A stretch of DNA of 37,088 bases from Sulfurimonas crateris (lineage in GTDB: Bacteria > Campylobacterota > Campylobacteria > Campylobacterales > Sulfurimonadaceae), in the NCBI GenBank assembly GCA_945883795.1, contig CAMCYC010000019.1, forward strand, positions 1-37,088, in the 5' to 3' direction. Below, piece by piece: positions 6,395 through 36,137 of this stretch (position 1 is its first letter; every line of letters begins with the position of its first letter). The position numbers were made by a program, and so were the translations under genes. The notes below the pieces were generated by a model. It had not been told where the DNA came from. It worked only from the letters and a program-made list of their open reading frames with translations, and did not search any database.

Positions 6395-7887
6395 TTGAAC
6401 TTCATGATTTAAAATTACTCTCTCAAGATTTAACTCTCTTATATGTAGAAGATGATGCTTCCATACGGGATGCACTTTCTATGTATCTCTTAAAACTATT
6501 TAAAAAAGTTGTTATTGCAAAAGATGGTGTAGAGGGTTTAGAACTGTATAAAATGCAACCAATAGATATAGTTATAACCGACCTTTCAATGCCACGAATG
6601 AATGGGCTAAATATGCTCCAAGAGATAAAAAAGATACATGAAGACCAATCTGTATTGATAACCTCTGCACATAGCGAATCTGAATATATGTTTGGAGCTA
6701 TCAAATTAGGGATAGACGGCTACATTATAAAACCATTTGATTTTCCTCAATTAAATGGAGAATTATTTAAAATATCAAATAAAATTTTTAAATTTAAAGA
6801 AAATGAAAACTTAAAACTGCATCTCCAACAGATGGTTTCGGCTAAAACGGTAGAGATTACAAAACTTATGCTTTTTCAAAATTATAATTATGAAAAAACA
6901 CTTCTCTCTATGGTTCAAATGATAGAAGAAAGAGATAATTATACAGCAGGACATAGTGAACGAGTAGCCGAATATTCAAAAAAAATTGCCCAACAAATGG
7001 GATACAGTAAAGAGGAATGTACCAAATTATATCAAGCTGGAATATTACATGATATAGGTAAAATAGCTACACCAGATACAGTGCTTTTAAATCCAAAAAA
7101 ATTAAATCAAATAGAATATAAACTAATTCAAGAGCATGTTATAGTGAGTTATAATCTTTTGAAAAATATACCCATGTTTCGAGATTTAGCCGACATTGTA
7201 AGAGTTCACCATGAGAGATATGATGGAGGAGGCTATCCTCGGGGTTTAAAAGCGGATGAAATTGAACCTCTGGCAAGAATCATGATAGTAGCAGATGCTT
7301 TTGATGCTATGACCACAAATAGAATTTATAAGGCAAGAAAAACAGTTCCTGAAGCTCTTGATGAACTTGTCGCTTTAAAAAAGAAACAGTTTCATCCAGA
7401 AGTTATAGATAGTGCAATCATCGCACTGAAAGATGTCACAATTGATGAAAATATCACTCAAACTCCAAAAACTAAATTGGAAGAGGAACGGTTTGCTTAT
7501 TTTTATAAAGATATTTTAGGAAATATGTATAATCAAAACTATTTAGAACTTATATTAATTAAAAATCAATACGAATTGACCTATAAATATTTATATCTTT
7601 TTACAATTAACAACTTTTCCCAATATAATAAAGATAATAGCTGGAAAAAAGGTGATGAATTTTTAATCTCTTTTGCTCAATATTTAGTAGAGTATTTTAC
7701 ATCAGCTTTAGTATTTAGAGTTTTTGGTGACAATTTTGTTGTCCTGACTGAAAAATTTATAAAGATAGAAAACATTACACTTAAACTTGATGAAATGATA
7801 AAAAATACAGCTGTACATTATAAAATCAATATAATAGATTTAACAGAAACAGAAATTAAAAATATTGCAGATATTGAAAACGCTTAA
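6391..7887 (+). CDS. Receiver-HD-GYP phosphodiesterase with degenerate GGDEF tail
   Basis: 498 residues. The receiver (about 12-125) has E20-D21-D22, D64 and K114. A helical linker leads to an HD-GYP domain (about 165-340) with H188, the H220-D221 pair in HDIGK, H249, and [11 protein letters not shown] at 273-283; these are the metal and signature residues of cyclic-di-GMP phosphodiesterases. The last 130 residues look like a GGDEF fold, but the active loop reads FRVFGDNF (442-449) in place of RxGGDEF, so cyclase activity is unlikely. Phosphorylation of the receiver probably adjusts cyclic-di-GMP hydrolysis. It ends the operon, its stop overlapping the tail of the convergent gene by four bases. 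Confidence 0.9.
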
Positions 7888-10294
7888 ATTATTTCTGCAT
7901 GATTATTTAAATATTTCTCTATCACTTTTTCAAGCTCATTTAAATTAATTGGTTTAGCAATATGTGCATTCATTCCAGCTTTTTGCGTGAGTAATTTATC
8001 ATCTTGCATGACAGCTGCACTTAAAGCAATAATGGGAATATTTTGATTAAATTTTCTAATCTCTTTTGTTGCTTCAAATCCATCCATAATTGGCATTTGT
8101 AAATCCATAAAAATCATATCAAAATCTTGCTGTTGTGCTTTTTGTACAGCAATTTTTCCATTTTCTGCGACTACAACTTCAAGCCCAAAGTTTTCTAAAT
8201 TCGCCTGTGCTACGATTTGATTTATCTCATTGTCTTCAACTAATAACACTTTTTTGGAGCTTTTAATATCTACTCCAGAGGTAAAATCTTGAATATTTTC
8301 CTCTTTTGGTAAAGGTGTTTTTTCTAAGAAGCCAAACTCTTTTTTATATCCCATTTTGAGCGTAAAATAAAATTCACTTCCTACATTTTCTTCTGATATT
8401 ACAGCTATTTCTCCCTCCATGAGTTCAACAAGCCGTTTTGAGATAGTAAGTCCCAAACCAGTACCACCAAATTCTCTTGTATGAGATGCATCCACTTGGG
8501 AAAATGCTTTAAAAAGTTTTTCTTGTTTATCTTTAGCAATCCCATGACCTGTATCTTTGACACTATATTTGATTATACAAAAATATTCATTTTGCTCTAA
8601 GAGTTCTACATAAATATTTACTGAACCTTTTTGTGTGAATTTAAGTGCATTCCCTGCAAGGTTAATAATAATTTGTTTTATACGAAATGGGTCACCAATA
8701 AGGATTCGATACATCCCCTCAGCTATTTTATAATGAAAATCTATTTTTTTTTCAGTTGCTTGATAAAAAAACATATCTAAGACCTCTTTTAAAATGGTAT
8801 CAAGTTCAAATTCAATCTCTTCAATTTCAATTTTATTAGCTTCAATCTTTGAATAATCCAATATATCATTTATAATATGAAGCAGTGCAGTTGAGGCACT
8901 TATTGATTTATTCAAATAATCTCTTTGTAAATTTGTCAGTGGTGTTTTGAGAGTAAGATTTGTTAATCCAATAATTCCATTGAGTGGAGTTCGTATCTCA
9001 TGACTCATATTTGCCAAAAATTCTGATTTTGATTTATTGGCTTGTTCTGCCTTTTCTTTTGCTTCTTCAAACTTTTTTGTTTTCTCGTTTACAAGAGAAT
9101 TTAAATGCCTTGTATGAAACATAAGAAGAAATATCACTGCTAAAAGAATAAAACTTATATATACAATTTCATTGACATATTTTGCAACAATATTTTCTTG
9201 TTTATTTGGATTATATACAATAGTTTGTACCGCTTTTTGAAGATTTTTTGCTGATAAACCTTGCTCTTGATAAAGCGTTGCAAGTATTTTAAATCGTTCT
9301 TGTTGCACATCTCCAAGCGGGATATATTTTGTAGCGATAAGATTTGCAGTGATTCTTGATTCATAGAGTAATTGCTCATAAGTGAGATTACGAGTATTAT
9401 ATTTTTGTAAAATAATATTTATTGCTTCATCTGGATATTCTAAAGCATACGCCCATCCTTTAAGTGTTGCTTCTTTAAAATTTTTTACCCTTTTTGGATG
9501 ATTTTTTATCTCATTTTCTGTGGTAAAAATAAGGTCGCCATAAAAATCAATTCCATAGTTTTTTGGGTCAATCACATTTACATCAATGTTGTATAGTTTC
9601 TTCATCCAATAAGGCTCTATACTAATATATGCTTCACAAATATCAACTTCACCATGAATGAAACTCATGTGAGAAAAATCCATCGGTTTTTTTATGTAGT
9701 CATTTTGTGTCAAATTTGCAAAACCAAGCAAACTTGAAATGATACTGTCATCAAGTCCCTCTTGAAATATACTCATTCAAATTGAAAAAGCATAAAATTT
9801 ATTATTACTTATCGGCTCCCAATTCCATAATACATGGAAAATTCCAATTATAAAAAAACTAGTTTTTTGAGTTTACTTGAGTATACAATCTTTTTCCCAC
9901 GCATTTCATAAGGACTCACAATACCAGATTCTTTTTTTGAGATAAGAACCATGCCATTATGTTGAAAAATTGTAGCAAGCACTTTTACAGGCTTTCCTTC
10001 TGCTCGGTAGCGGAGTATCACTGAATCAGCCAAACCATATTCAGACTCACCCTCAACAACTTGAAGAATATTATTTTTTGTTGGGTCTCTTTCTTTGATA
10101 GTGACATCAAGACCTACATCTTCATAAAACCCTTTTTCTTTGGCAACTATAATACCTGCAAATTGATATTGGTAAAACCATTTTAACTGCACACTAATCT
10201 TTTGTAAATCATCATCACCATGTAAAAAAGTGCTAAATAACAATAATATACATATTTGTAAAAATTTGTTTTTCTTCTTTTTAATTCTAAACAA
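7884..10294 (-). pseudogene. Disrupted NMT1-domain hybrid sensor histidine kinase
   Basis: Two minus-strand reading frames together make one protein. The upstream piece (9848-10294, 148 residues) has a signal peptide and the first half of a periplasmic NMT1/THI5-like binding domain, ending SPYEMRGKKIVY before running into a foreign tail and stop. The downstream piece (7884-9776) resumes with [13 protein letters not shown], finishes the binding domain, crosses the membrane (about residues 196-214 of the fragment), and continues with a HisKA domain ([18 protein letters not shown]), an HATPase domain ([15 protein letters not shown]) and a receiver ([13 protein letters not shown]). About 110-116 extra bases with stops separate the halves. 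The sensor half is therefore broken. The kinase half could still be made from ATG 9776, but without a signal peptide. Confidence 0.85.
9765..9880 (-). repeat. Short insertion splitting the hybrid kinase gene
   Basis: These roughly 110-116 bases separate two halves of one protein and carry stops in the flanking frames. CTTGA occurs at both edges (9761-9765 and 9876-9880), and TATAC at 9768-9772 and 9882-9886, so a short target duplication is possible, but exact ends cannot be fixed. Inside are a perfect 16-base palindrome with centre CTAG (9853-9868) and an imperfect inverted repeat around 9820-9847. It encodes no protein. A MITE-like element or a degraded insertion is the likeliest reading. 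Confidence 0.5.
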
Positions 10295-19264: not shown

Positions 19265-20503
19265 TTACACTTTATTCAGATATAAAACTGAATTTCCTTT
19301 ACTGTTATAATAAATTCCAAAACAATTTTTTCTTGATACAAATACACCTCTTCCATTAAAGCTTTCAGAATTTCTAAATATTGTGGCTAAAATTTGTGTA
19401 TCAAACCCAACCCCTTCATCTGTAATTTGTGTAATAAGATAGGTTGATTTACCATCTTCAATTTTATCAAGTTTTACTACTATTTTTTTTTCACACTCTT
19501 CACTTTTTTTGAGTAAAGTTTCAAAGTAAATATCATCATTTAAAAGTTGATGTTTATACGAAGCAGATATTCCAAGATTACCATGCTCATAAGCATTCAT
19601 AAACAATTCAGTAAATACAATATTGGCATTATAAGTTGATTCATTTGTACTAAGTTTTTTTAACTCTTTTTCATACCATTCATTTGCAAAATCAATACTT
19701 TCAAGCGTACAATCAAAACTTTTTTCACTCACAACTGTACTTGTATAATGAAGTCTATTAATAAAAATAAGCGTAATATCATCTTCCTGTACTTTTATTT
19801 TTTCAAAAATTTTATTTTTTAAATCTTCTCTAGTATAAGAAGTTGCAAAATCAAATTCTATAAATTCAGCATAAGTTTGATTCTCAAAAACAGTATTCTC
19901 AACAACACCATCACTATAAAAAAGTAATTTTGCAATCCCTAAAGTTTTATACTCCGAAATAGAAAATTTTTTTTGATATTTATTCATGGGAGGATTGTTT
20001 GATTTGATACGAATAATCTCTCTTTCATCTGTTTGTAAGAGCATAACAGGCATAGCAAATTTTGCATATTCCATCCGTCCATACGAATTATCTATGACAA
20101 TATAATCAATGGCTAAAATTTCCTCTTCAAGTAATATTGGTCTAATATATTCCATGGATTCTGTTATGAGAATATGTAAATCAAAACTATCATGCATTTT
20201 CATTTTATCTATTAAATGATTAATAAAGGAAGTCATTAATATAGCTGTTAAAGAGGCGGATAGCCCTTTTCCCATACCGTCAACGATAAGATAAAAAGTT
20301 CTATATTCATCTATCTCTCTTGCAGTATAGGCATCACCGCTCATCATGTCAAGTGGTTTATATAAAAAATCTACTAATTCATTTTGAGTTGAATCTATCA
20401 TTTTATAATAAAAATCATTTCTCAGAATATTTAACTCTTTAGCAAAAGATAAATTTTCTTGATAACTACTATAATTTTCTAAGGTTTCATTTAATAAGAG
20501 CAT
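19265..20503 (-). CDS. SpoIIE/RsbU-type phosphatase fused to HATPase (anti-sigma-kinase-like)
   Basis: 412 residues. The N-terminal part (about 35-240) is a PP2C-type SpoIIE phosphatase with metal-binding D57 (SGDAY), D75 (VDGMGKG) and the later FYSDGVVE and DDITLIF motifs. The C-terminal part (about 270-410) is an RsbW-like GHKL ATPase with ELFMNAYEHGN, DEGVGFD and GRGVFVSR. A phosphatase and a kinase acting on a STAS-domain protein in one chain would form a self-contained partner switch; the target is likely the STAS protein encoded at the head of the operon. It starts two bases after the chemoreceptor gene. Confidence 0.88.
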   Translation of the reverse strand: MLLLNETLENYSSYQENLSFAKELNILRNDFYYKMIDSTQNELVDFLYKPLDMMSGDAYTAREIDEYRTFYLIVDGMGKGLSASLTAILMTSFINHLIDKMKMHDSFDLHILITESMEYIRPILLEEEILAIDYIVIDNSYGRMEYAKFAMPVMLLQTDEREIIRIKSNNPPMNKYQKKFSISEYKTLGIAKLLFYSDGVVENTVFENQTYAEFIEFDFATSYTREDLKNKIFEKIKVQEDDITLIFINRLHYTSTVVSEKSFDCTLESIDFANEWYEKELKKLSTNESTYNANIVFTELFMNAYEHGNLGISASYKHQLLNDDIYFETLLKKSEECEKKIVVKLDKIEDGKSTYLITQITDEGVGFDTQILATIFRNSESFNGRGVFVSRKNCFGIYYNSKGNSVLYLNKV

Positions 20504-20505
20504 TT

Positions 20506-22482
20506 TTATACTTTAAATTTATTAAGTGTTTGTTCGAGTTGATTTGCTTCTCTGGATAAGTGTGATGCTGCATTTTTAACGGCAACTCTAATAGCAGTGT
20601 TTTTATCTGCAATATGTACCACTTCATCCATATTCGCAATCAACTCTTTTGTTTTTGTTGCAATATAAATACTCTGGTGAAGAACATCTTTTGATTGCGT
20701 ACTTGTAATAGCCAAATTGTTTTTTGTATCTTGTGATGAGATAATTAATGCATTTGCTGCGCTTGAGATATTTTGCATATTTTCTGAAGTTTCTTCTGTT
20801 TCTGTAGAAATTTCAACTACATTTTGTGAAATTAAGTTTATATTTGCACTAATTTCACTTAAACTTTTTTGCGTTCTCTCAGCAAGTTTTCTTACTTCAT
20901 CTGCAACTACAGCAAATCCTCTTCCATGTTCCCCTGCTCTGGCAGCTTCAATAGCAGCATTAAGTGCTAAAAGGTTTGTTTGGTCTGCAATATCAGAGAT
21001 AATGCCAAGAACATCTTTAATATTTTTTGCTTGTTCAGTTAAAGAAGTAACTTTTTGCGCTAAATCTTGTTGACGCACATTGCCATGTTCTATAGAATCT
21101 ACAACATCTTTAAGCTTTATAATAAAATCAGATAGAACATTAAATGTTTTATTTAAATCTTCTGTTACAACAACTGAACCCTCTTCTACTGTATCTAATC
21201 TTTCCCCTATCTCTGTTGCTAAAGTATAAATATTAGCTATTTTATTGTCAGAGTTGACACTATTGGTTGCCAATTCACTTACTATTTGGTTCAGTTGTTC
21301 ACTCTCATTCACTGTTACAGAGGATACATTTTTAGCGTTATCCATAGCAGCTCTAAATGCTTCTATCATTCCATGTAACGCAGTAGAAATTTGTGATATT
21401 TCATCACTTCCAGCAATATTAATATCACAAGTTAAGTTTAATTCATTTGATACACATCGTATTTTTTCCAAACTAAGAGTAACATTTTTACTTACACCTC
21501 TACTAATAGTCAATATTACTAGAAAAATAATTGCCGTAAAAAGTGTATATGCACCTAAAGTAAGAAAAGTTGTAAGTGTATGTTCTTTTTCAACCGTATC
21601 AATCAAAAGTGTGTTTTGACGAGACATTTCATCATCAACCTCTTTTAAAAGATTGATTTTCTTTGTAATTGTTGCAAACCAATGTTCGCTATCTACACCA
21701 AAATTGCCCGTGATGGCTTTTTCATTTGCAATTTTTCGCATGACATTCACTTCATCAATTACTGGATTTTTTATCTTCTCTGTATAAAACGCTTTGACTT
21801 CTTTAGAGGACATTGCCATGGATGAATCTAAATAACTATTTTGTTCTGCAACAAGTGTTATCCACTTGGCAAACATCCCATCCGCAAATTTATCTGCTGC
21901 AAATGAACCGCTCAAAACTGCCCTTTCAATCCCTGCTCTCTCTTTTGATTTTAAAAAATTTGTATAAGAATCAAGTGCTTTAATTAATTTTTGTGTATTT
22001 GCAAGTTTTGCTGTAAGTGCTACTATATTCAAAATTTTCCGATTCATGTCCGTATAATATGCAACCTCATCTTTGACACTAATAGTTAATGAAGATACTT
22101 GAGAACGAATTTGTTCAAGAGAGTTCATATCAGATTGAAAAGATGCTATTTCAGATTGTAAATCATCTGCATATACACTAAGATTTAAACTTAATAAATA
22201 GCTGTTTAATTCACTATTTCTATTAGTTGTCAAGATTCTTTGCTTTTGTAATATTTCACCAAATTTTTCCCCTTTTGAGCCAATAAAACCAGCCCCAGCA
22301 CCTCTTTCTTTTTGGGTTTCATGGATTAAAAGACTTAATTTTTGGGAAAGTATATTCAACTCTTTTGTTTGCGTTATACTCTCTTTATCTTTCATACTTT
22401 GTAAAAGTGTAGAAATCATAATTATAAGAGCAAAACCAACAACTATACCAATAATTAAGTTTAGCTTGTTTTTAATAGTCAC
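20506..22482 (-). CDS. Methyl-accepting chemotaxis protein with NIT sensor domain
   Basis: 658 residues. Membrane helix about 8-28, periplasmic NIT domain (about 45-300, with [13 protein letters not shown], a family signature for nitrate/nitrite sensing), second helix about 303-327, HAMP-like linker, then the cytoplasmic signalling hairpin with [20 protein letters not shown] and [16 protein letters not shown]. It should report its ligand to CheA/CheW. Nitrate is the known ligand type for NIT domains, not proven here. It lies between a STAS gene and a SpoIIE-HATPase gene with gaps of two bases, so it may feed a partner switch as well as chemotaxis. Confidence 0.93.
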
Positions 22483-22484
22483 TC

Positions 22485-22772
22485 TTAAAGCCTTTTTGCA
22501 TTAAAAGTGGCTGTTAAATTTAAATCACTTATTAAATCAAGCAAATCAGGATTTCCAATCTTTAGCACTATATTAATTCCATCTTTTAATACCAGTTTAT
22601 TCAAATAACCAATAACCGATGATGTAAGCGAGATAGAATCAACGATATGAATAGTGATTGCTTTATGATGAGCAACAACTCCATCTACTAAATTTTTTAT
22701 ATCTTGAAAATCATGAATACTTTTGATATTTCCTTTGATTGTAATAATTCCTTCTGAAGCACTTATTTCCAT
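22485..22772 (-). CDS. STAS-domain protein, anti-anti-sigma-like
   Basis: 95 residues, the size of a stand-alone STAS domain ([32 protein letters not shown]). The phosphorylatable serine would be S51 or S52 in the TSSVIG segment, where the family has DSSGLG. It is the first gene of the operon with the NIT chemoreceptor and the SpoIIE-HATPase fusion and is probably the substrate of that fusion's kinase and phosphatase halves. AAAAAGGG precedes the ATG. Confidence 0.7.
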
Positions 22773-22889: not shown

Positions 22890-22923
22890 ACTTGATTGAC
22901 CAAATCATCAAAAGAGTTTGGTC
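22890..22923 (-). terminator. Probable terminator after yjbQ
   Basis: On the minus strand GACCAAA pairs with TTTGGTC (22923-22917 with 22904-22898), followed shortly by GTTTTTC. It ends the kdsD-rluB-yjbQ transcript. Confidence 0.55.
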
Positions 22924-22950
22924 GTAGAGCGAGGGTGAAATCTTGCAAAT

Positions 22951-25191: not shown

Positions 25192-25926
25192 ATGAGAGAT
25201 AAATTAGGTAAATACATAAGTAGCATTGATACACTCAAACTTGAAGAAAGAGTATTAAAATATAATACTCTAATTTTAGGCGAAGAGGGAGCAGGAAAAA
25301 CGAATTTAGCATGCAAAATCAGAAACTATGTAATTGATAAGAATGTGCCAACTATTTATATGGACTTTTCAGATTCAAACGAAGATGCAATTGAAATACG
25401 GTATAAAGATGAACATTTTAATTATATCAGATTTGAAGAAAGCGAAGAGTTTAATAACGCTTTAGATGAATTAGTAAAAGCAAAAAAACATATCTACATG
25501 GCTGTAAACCCTAACTATTTTTCTTTCAAAAGAGATATTAAAAGTAAGCTTACACAAACACTCCAAAAACAAGAGCTTTTAGATAACTATTATTATTTCT
25601 TTCATGACATAGAAAGTTTGAATGGTTTTTATACAAAATTTGAAGATTTTTTACTCTACATGTTAGGCTTTTTAAATCTTCAAAAATATGGATTGACATT
25701 TTTGGCACAACCACATAGCACTTTTGCAAATCCACAAATAAAACTTTTATTTACATTTTTATATATAGGAAAATGTACTCATTTAGATTATTTTAATACT
25801 GCAAATTTAAAAAATTTCAAGAAAAATACTTTTCTTCATCAATACAGAACAGATTATCCAACACTTTTATTTAGTGATATTAAAACAAATCTTGTTGAGA
25901 TTGATGAATATCTTTTTGAAGAATAA
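25192..25926 (+). CDS. P-loop ATPase of unknown role
   Basis: 244 residues with a Walker A motif GEEGAGKT (30-37) and a plausible Walker B, YYFFHDIES (about 134-142). The layout (NTLILGEEGAGKTNLACKIRNYVID, later ADP-type helices rich in Phe/Tyr) suggests a soluble ATP-binding switch or loader, but no family is recognised. It has its own TATAAT promoter and lies two bases before the Nnr gene, with which it is probably co-transcribed. Confidence 0.75.
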   Translation: MRDKLGKYISSIDTLKLEERVLKYNTLILGEEGAGKTNLACKIRNYVIDKNVPTIYMDFSDSNEDAIEIRYKDEHFNYIRFEESEEFNNALDELVKAKKHIYMAVNPNYFSFKRDIKSKLTQTLQKQELLDNYYYFFHDIESLNGFYTKFEDFLLYMLGFLNLQKYGLTFLAQPHSTFANPQIKLLFTFLYIGKCTHLDYFNTANLKNFKKNTFLHQYRTDYPTLLFSDIKTNLVEIDEYLFEE

Positions 25927-33585: not shown

Positions 33586-34215
33586 ATGAATTTTTTTAAA
33601 GTAATATTTTCAATTTTATTATTATTAATCATGATAACTGCTAATAGTTTGGCGGAACTTATAGATAATCAGGTGATTGTCGCTGCTGATGCAAAATATA
33701 AAACTTTTGCAAAAAATCGTTTTATTGCAGCAAAAAAACAATTACTCACTGACCTTCAAGGTAAGACGGACATGGAAAAATTGGAGGTAGTAAATAGTTG
33801 GTACAACGCTATCCTTTACAAAAGTGACCGAGAAATTTATGGAGTGAGTGATTATTGGGCTACACTTTATGAATTTGTAGGAAAAGGGATGGGTGATTGT
33901 GAAGATTATACAATTGCCAAATATTACACACTCAAAGAGTTGGGAATTGACCCAAATAAAATGAAGTTTACTTATGTTGTTTACAAAAGCAGAAGTGGAG
34001 AAAATATCTCTCATATGGTACTTTCGTACCTCACTGTACCAAAGCCAAAATCAAAAGATGATATTTTGATTTTAGGGAATATTAATCAAAGAGTTTTACC
34101 TGTATCCAAACGGCTTGATATAGTCAAAATGGTTAGGATGATGAACGGTGACACAGGTGCGCAATCAAAAAAATGGAAACAGTTAGATTCTGACATGAAA
34201 AGGAAAAAGTTATGA
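33586..34215 (+). CDS. lapG: LapG-like periplasmic cysteine protease (BTLCP family)
   Basis: 209 residues with a signal peptide (about 1-23). The transglutaminase-like core has catalytic C105 (GMGDCEDY) and H143 (ISHMVLSY). In LapG the third residue is an Asp in a segment like LDN; here the aligned segment ILGNI has Gly (G164), so the triad may be altered, although D158/D159 are close by. In Pseudomonas LapG clips the N-terminus of a large surface adhesin and is held back by LapD. The downstream gene is lapD-like and overlaps by four bases, which supports the call. No adhesin gene is in the window. Confidence 0.85.
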   Translation: MNFFKVIFSILLLLIMITANSLAELIDNQVIVAADAKYKTFAKNRFIAAKKQLLTDLQGKTDMEKLEVVNSWYNAILYKSDREIYGVSDYWATLYEFVGKGMGDCEDYTIAKYYTLKELGIDPNKMKFTYVVYKSRSGENISHMVLSYLTVPKPKSKDDILILGNINQRVLPVSKRLDIVKMVRMMNGDTGAQSKKWKQLDSDMKRKKL

Positions 34216-36137
34216 TGACACTCTTTAAACAGATGGCTTTGGCTATATCGTTGATTATTATATTTTTATTAGCTACCGTTATGGTGATAAATTATCAATC
34301 TGCAAAAAAAGATATAATACAAAGTCTTTATGAAACAACTGTAAATAATATTTCCACTTTAACCACAAAGTTGGCAGAAGCTTCTTCAGATTCTGCACTT
34401 CTCACTTCAACTATAGATGCCGAATTTGATAGTGGTTATTATAAGATGATTGATTTTAAATCTAATGATGGTAAATCGGATTACAAGCAGATAGATAATA
34501 AGGCAATAAAAGATGTCCCCTCATGGTTTGTAAATTTCAGCTCAATTGAATTAGATTCTGTTTCTTCTGATGTTTCTTCTGGTTGGGACATGATAGGCAC
34601 GGTAACTGTTTTAGGCGATACTGGAGTTGTTTATAGAGCCTTGTATAAAATGCTTATCAAACTTTCTTATTTGTTTATTGTGTCTTTATCTATAGCTTTA
34701 ATTATTTTGTCTGGAATGCTTCATTTTATACTTAAACCATTGTCTAGAATTCGAGACCAAGCAGAAGCTATTCTCAGGAATGAATTTATTATTCAAGAAA
34801 AAATGCCTTTTACAACAGAGTTTAAAGATGTTGTAAATGGTATGAATGCTATGGTTAGTAAAGTTGAGGAGATATTCAAAAAAGGGAATGAAGCGGCTCA
34901 GAGAAATAAAGAACTCATGTATAATGACCCAATAACCAAACTTTTCAATCGCAGATACTTGATGCTCAAACTTCCTGACCTTATCAAAGTTGAAAATAAA
35001 GCCAATGGTGGAATTATCATGTTTATCGCTCTTGGTGGTGCAGAGATACTCAATCAAACTTTAGGGCGAAGAAAAGCTGATGATATATTTTTGGAGATTG
35101 CAAATGAATTTCATGATATTTGTAAGAAGTTTGAAGATAGAGTTATAGCTCGTGTAAATGGTACAGAATTTACTCTCATGTTGCCTGATTGTGAGGCAGA
35201 TGAGGCTCGTGAGATAGCAAAAAGTATTCAAGAAAAGTTTGCACAACTTATAATAACAGAAGAATTACCGCTCAAAGATGTGTATATAAATATAGGGATT
35301 TATAAGTACAAACCAACTGTGAGTATTGCTGATTTGCTTACAAGAGCAGATAACGCTCTCTCTCAAGCTAAAGCTGATGAAAAAGATAATATTTATCTGT
35401 ATGAAGAAAAAGATGATGAACATGCATTAGGCAAAGAGCAATGGCGTGAGATTATAGAAGAGTCAATTAACAAGAACTATTTTAGCCTCAAATTCTGGCC
35501 GACTCTCAATGCAAAAACAAAACAAGTCAATCATAAAGTTATGACCTTTACTATTGATGGTGGAGTGAGCAAAAAGTATTTTTATGGTGATTTTATAGCA
35601 CCTGCAATCAATTTGGGACTTGTAAGCAAAATGTATTTGGTAGCTCTCAAAGACCTTATTACAGCGCAACATGAGGAACTTAATGGAAGTACATGTTCTA
35701 TTCGGTTATCAAATGAATTTATCAAAGATACACAAGCGTATTACGAACTCTCTTCATTATTTGAAAAGCACATAAAAACACTCAAATTTAAACTCTCTTT
35801 TGAAGTATCCGACTCATTTGCAATCAATAATACTTTGGCAGTCAAAGAGTATGTAAACCTTTTTAGCAAACATAATATTGGGTTTGGTATCAACTCTTTT
35901 ACAGGAGAATCCAAAGATTTTACTTATTTAAAACAGCTAACACCAGCATTTTTAAAAGCTGATTGTGCTTTTTTACTTGACCAATCTCAAGATTCTATGG
36001 GAGCGTTACAAGTAGTTACTGATTCGTTAGGGATAGAAATAATTGCAACTTTTGTAAAAACGCAAGAGGAGCTTGATAAACTTTTTGCAATGCACATAAA
36101 CAGTGTTCAAGGTCCAATTACCGATAAGTTAGGATAG
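34212..36137 (+). CDS. lapD: LapD-like cyclic-di-GMP receptor with degenerate GGDEF and EAL domains
   Basis: 641 residues. Membrane helix about 8-28, periplasmic LapD/MoxY-type domain (about 30-148) with W125 in SGWDMIGTV, helix about 150-172, HAMP, then GGDEF and EAL folds. The GGDEF loop reads RVNGTEFTL and the EAL position (HKVMTF) and later segments (TFVKTQEEL) lack catalytic residues, so this should bind rather than make or break cyclic-di-GMP. In Pseudomonas, W125 of LapD docks into LapG; the same numbering here is striking. Its start overlaps the lapG stop. When the nucleotide is bound, LapG should be sequestered and the adhesin kept. Confidence 0.88.
   Translation: MMTLFKQMALAISLIIIFLLATVMVINYQSAKKDIIQSLYETTVNNISTLTTKLAEASSDSALLTSTIDAEFDSGYYKMIDFKSNDGKSDYKQIDNKAIKDVPSWFVNFSSIELDSVSSDVSSGWDMIGTVTVLGDTGVVYRALYKMLIKLSYLFIVSLSIALIILSGMLHFILKPLSRIRDQAEAILRNEFIIQEKMPFTTEFKDVVNGMNAMVSKVEEIFKKGNEAAQRNKELMYNDPITKLFNRRYLMLKLPDLIKVENKANGGIIMFIALGGAEILNQTLGRRKADDIFLEIANEFHDICKKFEDRVIARVNGTEFTLMLPDCEADEAREIAKSIQEKFAQLIITEELPLKDVYINIGIYKYKPTVSIADLLTRADNALSQAKADEKDNIYLYEEKDDEHALGKEQWREIIEESINKNYFSLKFWPTLNAKTKQVNHKVMTFTIDGGVSKKYFYGDFIAPAINLGLVSKMYLVALKDLITAQHEELNGSTCSIRLSNEFIKDTQAYYELSSLFEKHIKTLKFKLSFEVSDSFAINNTLAVKEYVNLFSKHNIGFGINSFTGESKDFTYLKQLTPAFLKADCAFLLDQSQDSMGALQVVTDSLGIEIIATFVKTQEELDKLFAMHINSVQGPITDKLG

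Follow-up and report, generated by a model that had tools for sequence, protein, structure and literature searches.

A STAS-only protein, a chemoreceptor with a NIT sensor domain and a phosphatase-kinase fusion are encoded by three consecutive minus-strand open reading frames of Sulfurimonas crateris, each gap measuring 2 bp, and we consider it highly likely that the three genes form one functional unit, a partner switch with its own chemoreceptor. They lie within a 37,088-nucleotide stretch of DNA, analysed at its full length and here called the window, from a genome assembly of 126 contigs that is 99.85% complete (Table 1). Because relatives keep the trio together despite changes in gene order, sensor and switch very probably act jointly. 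Our favoured reading is a switch of the CrsR-CrsA/HsbR-HsbA type, and we give the full explanation, including a flagellar output through FlgM and FliA, a probability of roughly 50%.

The STAS fold, every catalytic residue of the PP2C and GHKL domains and the signalling tip of the methyl-accepting chemotaxis protein (MCP) are all intact in the window, and pairwise dN/dS of close pairs is 0.09-0.23. The original prediction, made from the sequence alone, had described three genes within a few bases of each other, a partner switch linked with a chemoreceptor of the NIT type, and a phosphatase and a kinase in one chain; the reading frames, the domains together with the conserved linkage, and the intact catalytic residues bear out these points in turn. 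In the open-licence literature, searches for Sulfurimonas together with anti-sigma-factor antagonists yielded no description of the switch.

Table 1 Features of the partner-switch locus, in window coordinates
Feature	Coordinates	Strand	Basis
STAS-only protein, 95 aa, anti-sigma-factor-antagonist fold	22485..22772	-	AF2, Foldseek, 26-row alignment
S51-S52 in the STAS loop (D-S-x-S-x-T-S-S-x-I-G), candidate phosphoacceptor	22617..22622	-	Alignment
658-aa methyl-accepting chemotaxis protein with a NIT domain; start codon GTG	20506..22482	-	PF08376, PF00015
NIT domain, aa 52-289, with R60, R187 and R249	21616..22329	-	Pfam, NasR alignment
C343-x8-C352, HAMP-like segment of the receptor	21427..21456	-	Receptor comparison
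MCP signalling domain, canonical hairpin tip	20617..21090	-	Pfam, alignment
412-aa fusion of PP2C (SpoIIE) and HATPase, no receiver domain	19265..20503	-	Pfam, AF2, alignment
N-terminal helix of the fusion, aa 2-26, kept part of the linker	20426..20500	-	Orthologue comparison
PP2C/SpoIIE phosphatase domain, Pfam match aa 67-249	19757..20305	-	PF07228
GHKL ATPase/serine-kinase domain, aa 286-405	19289..19648	-	phmmer, alignment

Single-sequence searches of Pfam, NCBIfam and the PDB with the STAS protein returned nothing above cut-off, so its fold was set by AF2 and Foldseek. The model (pLDDT 93.7) matches the anti-sigma-factor antagonists RsfB, SpoIIAA and RsbV, with a best E-value of 1.5e-3, though with probability near 1. 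Across 26 aligned STAS sequences S51 and G55 are invariant. Manual alignment of the loop would make S52 the counterpart of SpoIIAA S58; this residue is replaced by alanine in L060 and L061 and by threonine in L070, so that S51 and S52 are both candidate phosphoacceptors.

The fusion carries a SpoIIE match (E 7.6e-17) with the metal-binding aspartates kept at D57 (just before the Pfam match), D75, D198 and D241/D242. The kinase half has an N-box (E299/N303/E306/H307), a G1 box (D362-x-G-x-G) and a G2 box (G384-R-G); its Pfam match to HATPase_c_2 is sub-threshold (E 0.03), and phmmer aligns it with the HATPase of PDB 9qih at 8.6e-9. The catalytic residues of both domains are invariant in a 25-row alignment. 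The AF2 model of the fusion (pLDDT 87.8) has as its top Foldseek match the RsbU-RsbW part of Rv1364c from Mycobacterium tuberculosis (3ke6, 8e-17), the closest solved fold, in which phosphatase and kinase likewise share one chain; its identity to the window fusion is about 13%. We know of no chemoreceptor co-encoded with Rv1364c.

Most orthologues of the fusion begin with a receiver (REC) domain, giving a REC-PP2C-HATPase layout (Response_reg 1.2e-21 in L031 and 1.5e-24 in L167), and in them the motif YxxYQExLxFxKELNILRNDFYY joins REC to PP2C. The window fusion partly retains this linker, begins 2 bp past the MCP stop and has no in-frame REC upstream. A hidden, frameshifted receiver was considered and rejected: the MCP fills the space, and the in-frame upstream sequence has stops. 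By sequence comparison, the window fusion is one of many recurrent REC losses. A tree of 62 rows labelled for absence of REC requires 11 label changes, at least 9 of them on well-supported branches, a count that is only approximate because some labels rest on the choice of gene start or on a broken frame, as in L051. In this Sulfurimonas locus (8549-10036, on a contig shared with L081), an in-frame stop breaks the receiver part of the fusion. Signals are received by RsbU-type phosphatases via a helical linker of such a kind (PMC12143880), so the kept linker helix is consistent with a regulated phosphatase. Separately, five loci (L062, L064, L067, L097 and L103) encode REC-PP2C paralogues that have no HATPase; next to them stand large genes with N-termini that, on visual inspection, resemble FIST.

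In the receptor, the NIT domain (PF08376, E 7.6e-55) and the MCP signalling domain (PF00015, E 1.1e-30) are readily recognized, the HAMP match is weak (0.011), and the hairpin tip is conserved across 18 aligned rows. The pair C343-x8-C352 is found in every linked Sulfurimonas-type receptor compared, L163 included, and is absent from unlinked NIT-MCPs and from the linked NIT-MCPs of other families; it may be a redox or metal site. A single clade of all linked NIT receptors was not recovered in the tree. They sit inside one well-supported larger clade, mixed with unlinked ones.

The original prediction had named conserved linkage in advance as a point on which it could fail. Among 29 tabulated Sulfurimonas loci, STAS is adjacent in all 27 that no contig end truncates, 25 of the 29 have an adjoining NIT-MCP, and the linkage recurs, permuted, in three further families. 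In the exceptions (L033, L038, L043 and L045) STAS immediately precedes the fusion and no MCP adjoins; L040 has the order MCP-STAS-fusion. Outside the genus, the family f20 (L163, L164) has STAS-MCP-fusion with a NIT-MCP, in the order seen in Sulfurimonas, and both f23 (L165-L169) and f7 (L173-L175) have MCP-fusion-STAS, again with a NIT-type MCP. In all five f23 loci a flhB-like gene directly follows STAS, as confirmed for L167 (TIGR00328, E 3e-124) and judged by N-terminal sequence for the other four. The sensor type of the linked MCP varies (NIT, PAS-type or dCache): L058, L059, L177 and L178 have fusion-STAS-MCP with an MCP other than the NIT type, and in Mucispirillum (L091) a dCache MCP lies upstream of the switch. 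Nitrospirota (L082-L084, L087) have STAS and a REC-fusion with no NIT-MCP adjacent, and Sulfurospirillum (L053, L085, L088, L100) has the fusion alone. Since the neighbourhood is kept while its order is permuted, the trio is best read as a functional unit.

Many Sulfurimonas loci share rplT (L20) as a flank; in a second group the downstream flank is of another kind. Other Sulfurimonas, for example L031 (5320-6510), have an intact rarA immediately preceding STAS; at 22892-22948 on the minus strand of the window, a relic that reads LQDFTLALRPNSFDDLVNQ resembles the N-terminus of RarA, and a search for RarA in the window's genome gave only RuvB- and DnaX-like matches. Elsewhere in the window, an NMT1-HisKA-HATPase-REC hybrid histidine kinase (7884-10294, minus strand) is apparently split, with positions 2-100 of the NMT1 profile in the frame at 9848-10294 and positions 101-216 in that at 7884-9776; this may reflect a frameshift, gene breakage or faulty assembly. 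A 244-aa P-loop protein (25192-25926, plus strand) has weak AAA-type matches, and its top NCBIfam match, to an anti-phage protein (1.3e-5), falls far under the cut-off.

Two known systems resemble the locus, the likeness in both cases being one of domain layout. In Shewanella oneidensis the CrsR and CrsA genes lie in the che1 operon with two MCPs, McpA and Aer2, and the proposed control of RpoS by Che1 runs via CrsR/CrsA (PMC9855816). As there, the window has a STAS-only antagonist, PP2C and GHKL in one chain and a chemoreceptor gene alongside. On the other hand, CrsR has a receiver, the che1 operon also encodes CheA1, CheW1, CheY1 and others, and its target is RpoS, whereas the window has neither che genes alongside nor a receiver, and no RpoS-like sigma factor was found in its genome. 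The REC-PP2C-HATPase and STAS layout of most orthologues is that of HsbR-HsbA in Pseudomonas aeruginosa, where FlgM and the diguanylate cyclase HsbD are the targets of HsbR (REC-PP2C-kinase) and HsbA, and HsbR interacts with RpoS (PMC6482189, PMC5085249). The ties of HsbR-HsbA with FlgM/FliA and with flagellar gene clusters are a further point of likeness (PMC5085249); its input, however, is the HptB phosphorelay, with no chemoreceptor reported in the switch, and the window copy lacks REC. A chemoreceptor-linked partner switch is thus not new in kind, CrsRA being a precedent in a chemosensory operon. To the extent of our search, what is new is the phylum, the NIT receptor in an operon that has no other che genes, conservation in permuted order from family to family and the repeated loss of REC.

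These precedents bear on the target, which the original prediction had held to be probably something other than a sigma factor. That expectation is not supported, as the same layout acts on FlgM/FliA and RpoS in Pseudomonas and Shewanella (PMC6482189, PMC5085249). The window's genome has only two matches to Sigma70 region 2, in frames of 633 and 234 aa, which by their size we take as RpoD and FliA, and the same search found no sigma-B-like or RpoS-like factor; a sigma-B/Rsb system is ruled out for want of a sigma-B-like factor in the genome. It also has one FlgM, 18 CheW-domain matches and 4 CheA dimerisation-domain matches. With FlgM and a FliA-sized sigma present, and with relatives of the same layout acting there, FlgM/FliA remains a candidate target. 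Taken as a whole, the earlier reading stood for the switch, the receptor and their linkage, set sigma factors aside without support, and missed both the REC loss and the CrsRA precedent.

A wider survey covered 248 genomes of the order. A search with the fusion alignment returned many REC-only matches, and by reading the list we counted only those covering PP2C and/or HATPase, which gave 51 genomes with the switch. CheA and flagellin are both present in 51 of 51. The switch occurs in none of the 41 genomes without CheA (Fisher p 7e-5) and none of the 34 without flagellin (p 4e-4), and FlgM is present in 43 of the 51 (p 2e-4), although these values ignore kinship and are to be read with care because families without flagella count many times. 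FlgM gave no match in the other eight, all five f7 genomes among them, the FlgM model being short; each of the eight has a second, FliA-sized sigma, in one case only as a 156-aa open frame. An obligate role for FlgM in every genome is thereby unsupported.

The mechanism that we propose runs as follows. The HATPase domain of the fusion would phosphorylate STAS at a serine in its loop, and PP2C, in the same chain, would remove the phosphate, so that the balance of phosphorylation would set the binding partner of STAS. Input to the switch would come from the NIT chemoreceptor; in orthologues with REC the simplest route would lead from receptor to CheA, phospho-REC and PP2C. Since the window copy has no REC but keeps the linker helix, its input would come via the linker, through another protein or by expression level. 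The output would most likely be flagellar motility, with unphosphorylated STAS binding FlgM and so freeing FliA, as HsbA does. Against this motility mechanism stand the FlgM-negative genomes, the window copy without a receiver for CheA and the four Sulfurimonas loci without an MCP.

A rather unlikely alternative makes the receptor the target and not the input: STAS, by its phosphorylation state, would bind the receptor (or CheA/CheW) and so tune the chemotaxis array. Beyond the STAS-fusion core, no neighbour is as constant as the MCP, with its sensor type varied; CheA occurs in all counted switch-bearing genomes; and REC was lost at least nine times, yet most of those Sulfurimonas loci retain the MCP. 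However, a STAS-binding segment in the MCP was not identified, and four Sulfurimonas loci, as well as Nitrospirota loci, have STAS and the fusion with no MCP next to them. Across the 29 Sulfurimonas loci no link is apparent between REC loss and MCP presence (17 with REC and MCP, 8 with MCP and no REC, 3 with REC only, 1 with neither). It is likewise unlikely, if slightly more so, that in the receiver-less versions the receptor couples to the fusion without two-component phosphotransfer, or that STAS feeds back on the receptor.

The switch could also act through c-di-GMP, STAS activating a diguanylate cyclase encoded elsewhere in the genome in the manner of SiaC-SiaD or HsbA-HsbD, which we think improbable. 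Phosphorylated HsbA binds the diguanylate cyclase HsbD (PMC5085249), a GGDEF-EAL gene adjoins the fusion in L058, and the window encodes a LapD-type protein (LapD_MoxY_N, GGDEF and EAL; 34212-36137, plus strand) 12 kb away. Against this, the remaining inspected loci showed no recognizable GGDEF gene beside the switch, and the fusion scores 18 bits against the SiaA model NF038263, whose cut-off is 700; the same score rules out a SiaA/SiaC assignment.

Equally doubtful is that the receptor reports nitrate or nitrite and that the switch sets denitrification or respiratory genes. Besides its strong Pfam match, the NIT domain of the receptor aligns with NasR (4akk) at 1e-9, and R60, R187 and R249 fall on conserved NasR arginines. 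We take NasR R50 and R236 to be pocket residues. NIT-MCPs such as PA4520 share the NIT sensor and the MCP signalling domain with the window receptor, which differs in its lineage-specific cysteine pair; to our knowledge, PA4520-type receptors have no linkage to a partner switch. A published prediction places NasR E175/R176 in the nitrate pocket (PMC7496416). Yet the NasR-aligned arginines are common to nearly all NIT-MCPs compared, unlinked ones included, and the PA4520 NIT domain binds neither nitrate nor nitrite, its mutant being normal in nitrate chemotaxis (PMC6381276). The nitrate or nitrite signal of the original prediction is therefore weak, the kept arginines speaking for it and their generality and PA4520 against; for the window receptor it follows from the domain name only. 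Very improbable indeed is that the three genes are chance neighbours within stable housekeeping surroundings: in Sulfurimonas much of what lies around them (rluB, rarA, rplT) is conserved too, but the trio persists with permuted order and other flanks in other families, and at two kinds of downstream flank within Sulfurimonas.

Partner switches have been studied mainly as controllers of sigma factors in Firmicutes, Actinobacteria and Gammaproteobacteria. A chemoreceptor-linked switch conserved across several families of Campylobacterota, a phylum that has very few sigma factors, would connect chemosensing with motility or gene expression in a lineage where, in our sample, the switch occurs only in genomes with CheA and flagellin. 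The repeated loss of REC offers natural variants for asking how the switch gets its input. If receptor coupling without phosphotransfer, or feedback of STAS on the receptor, were true, it would amount to a direct signalling route from chemoreceptor to partner switch.
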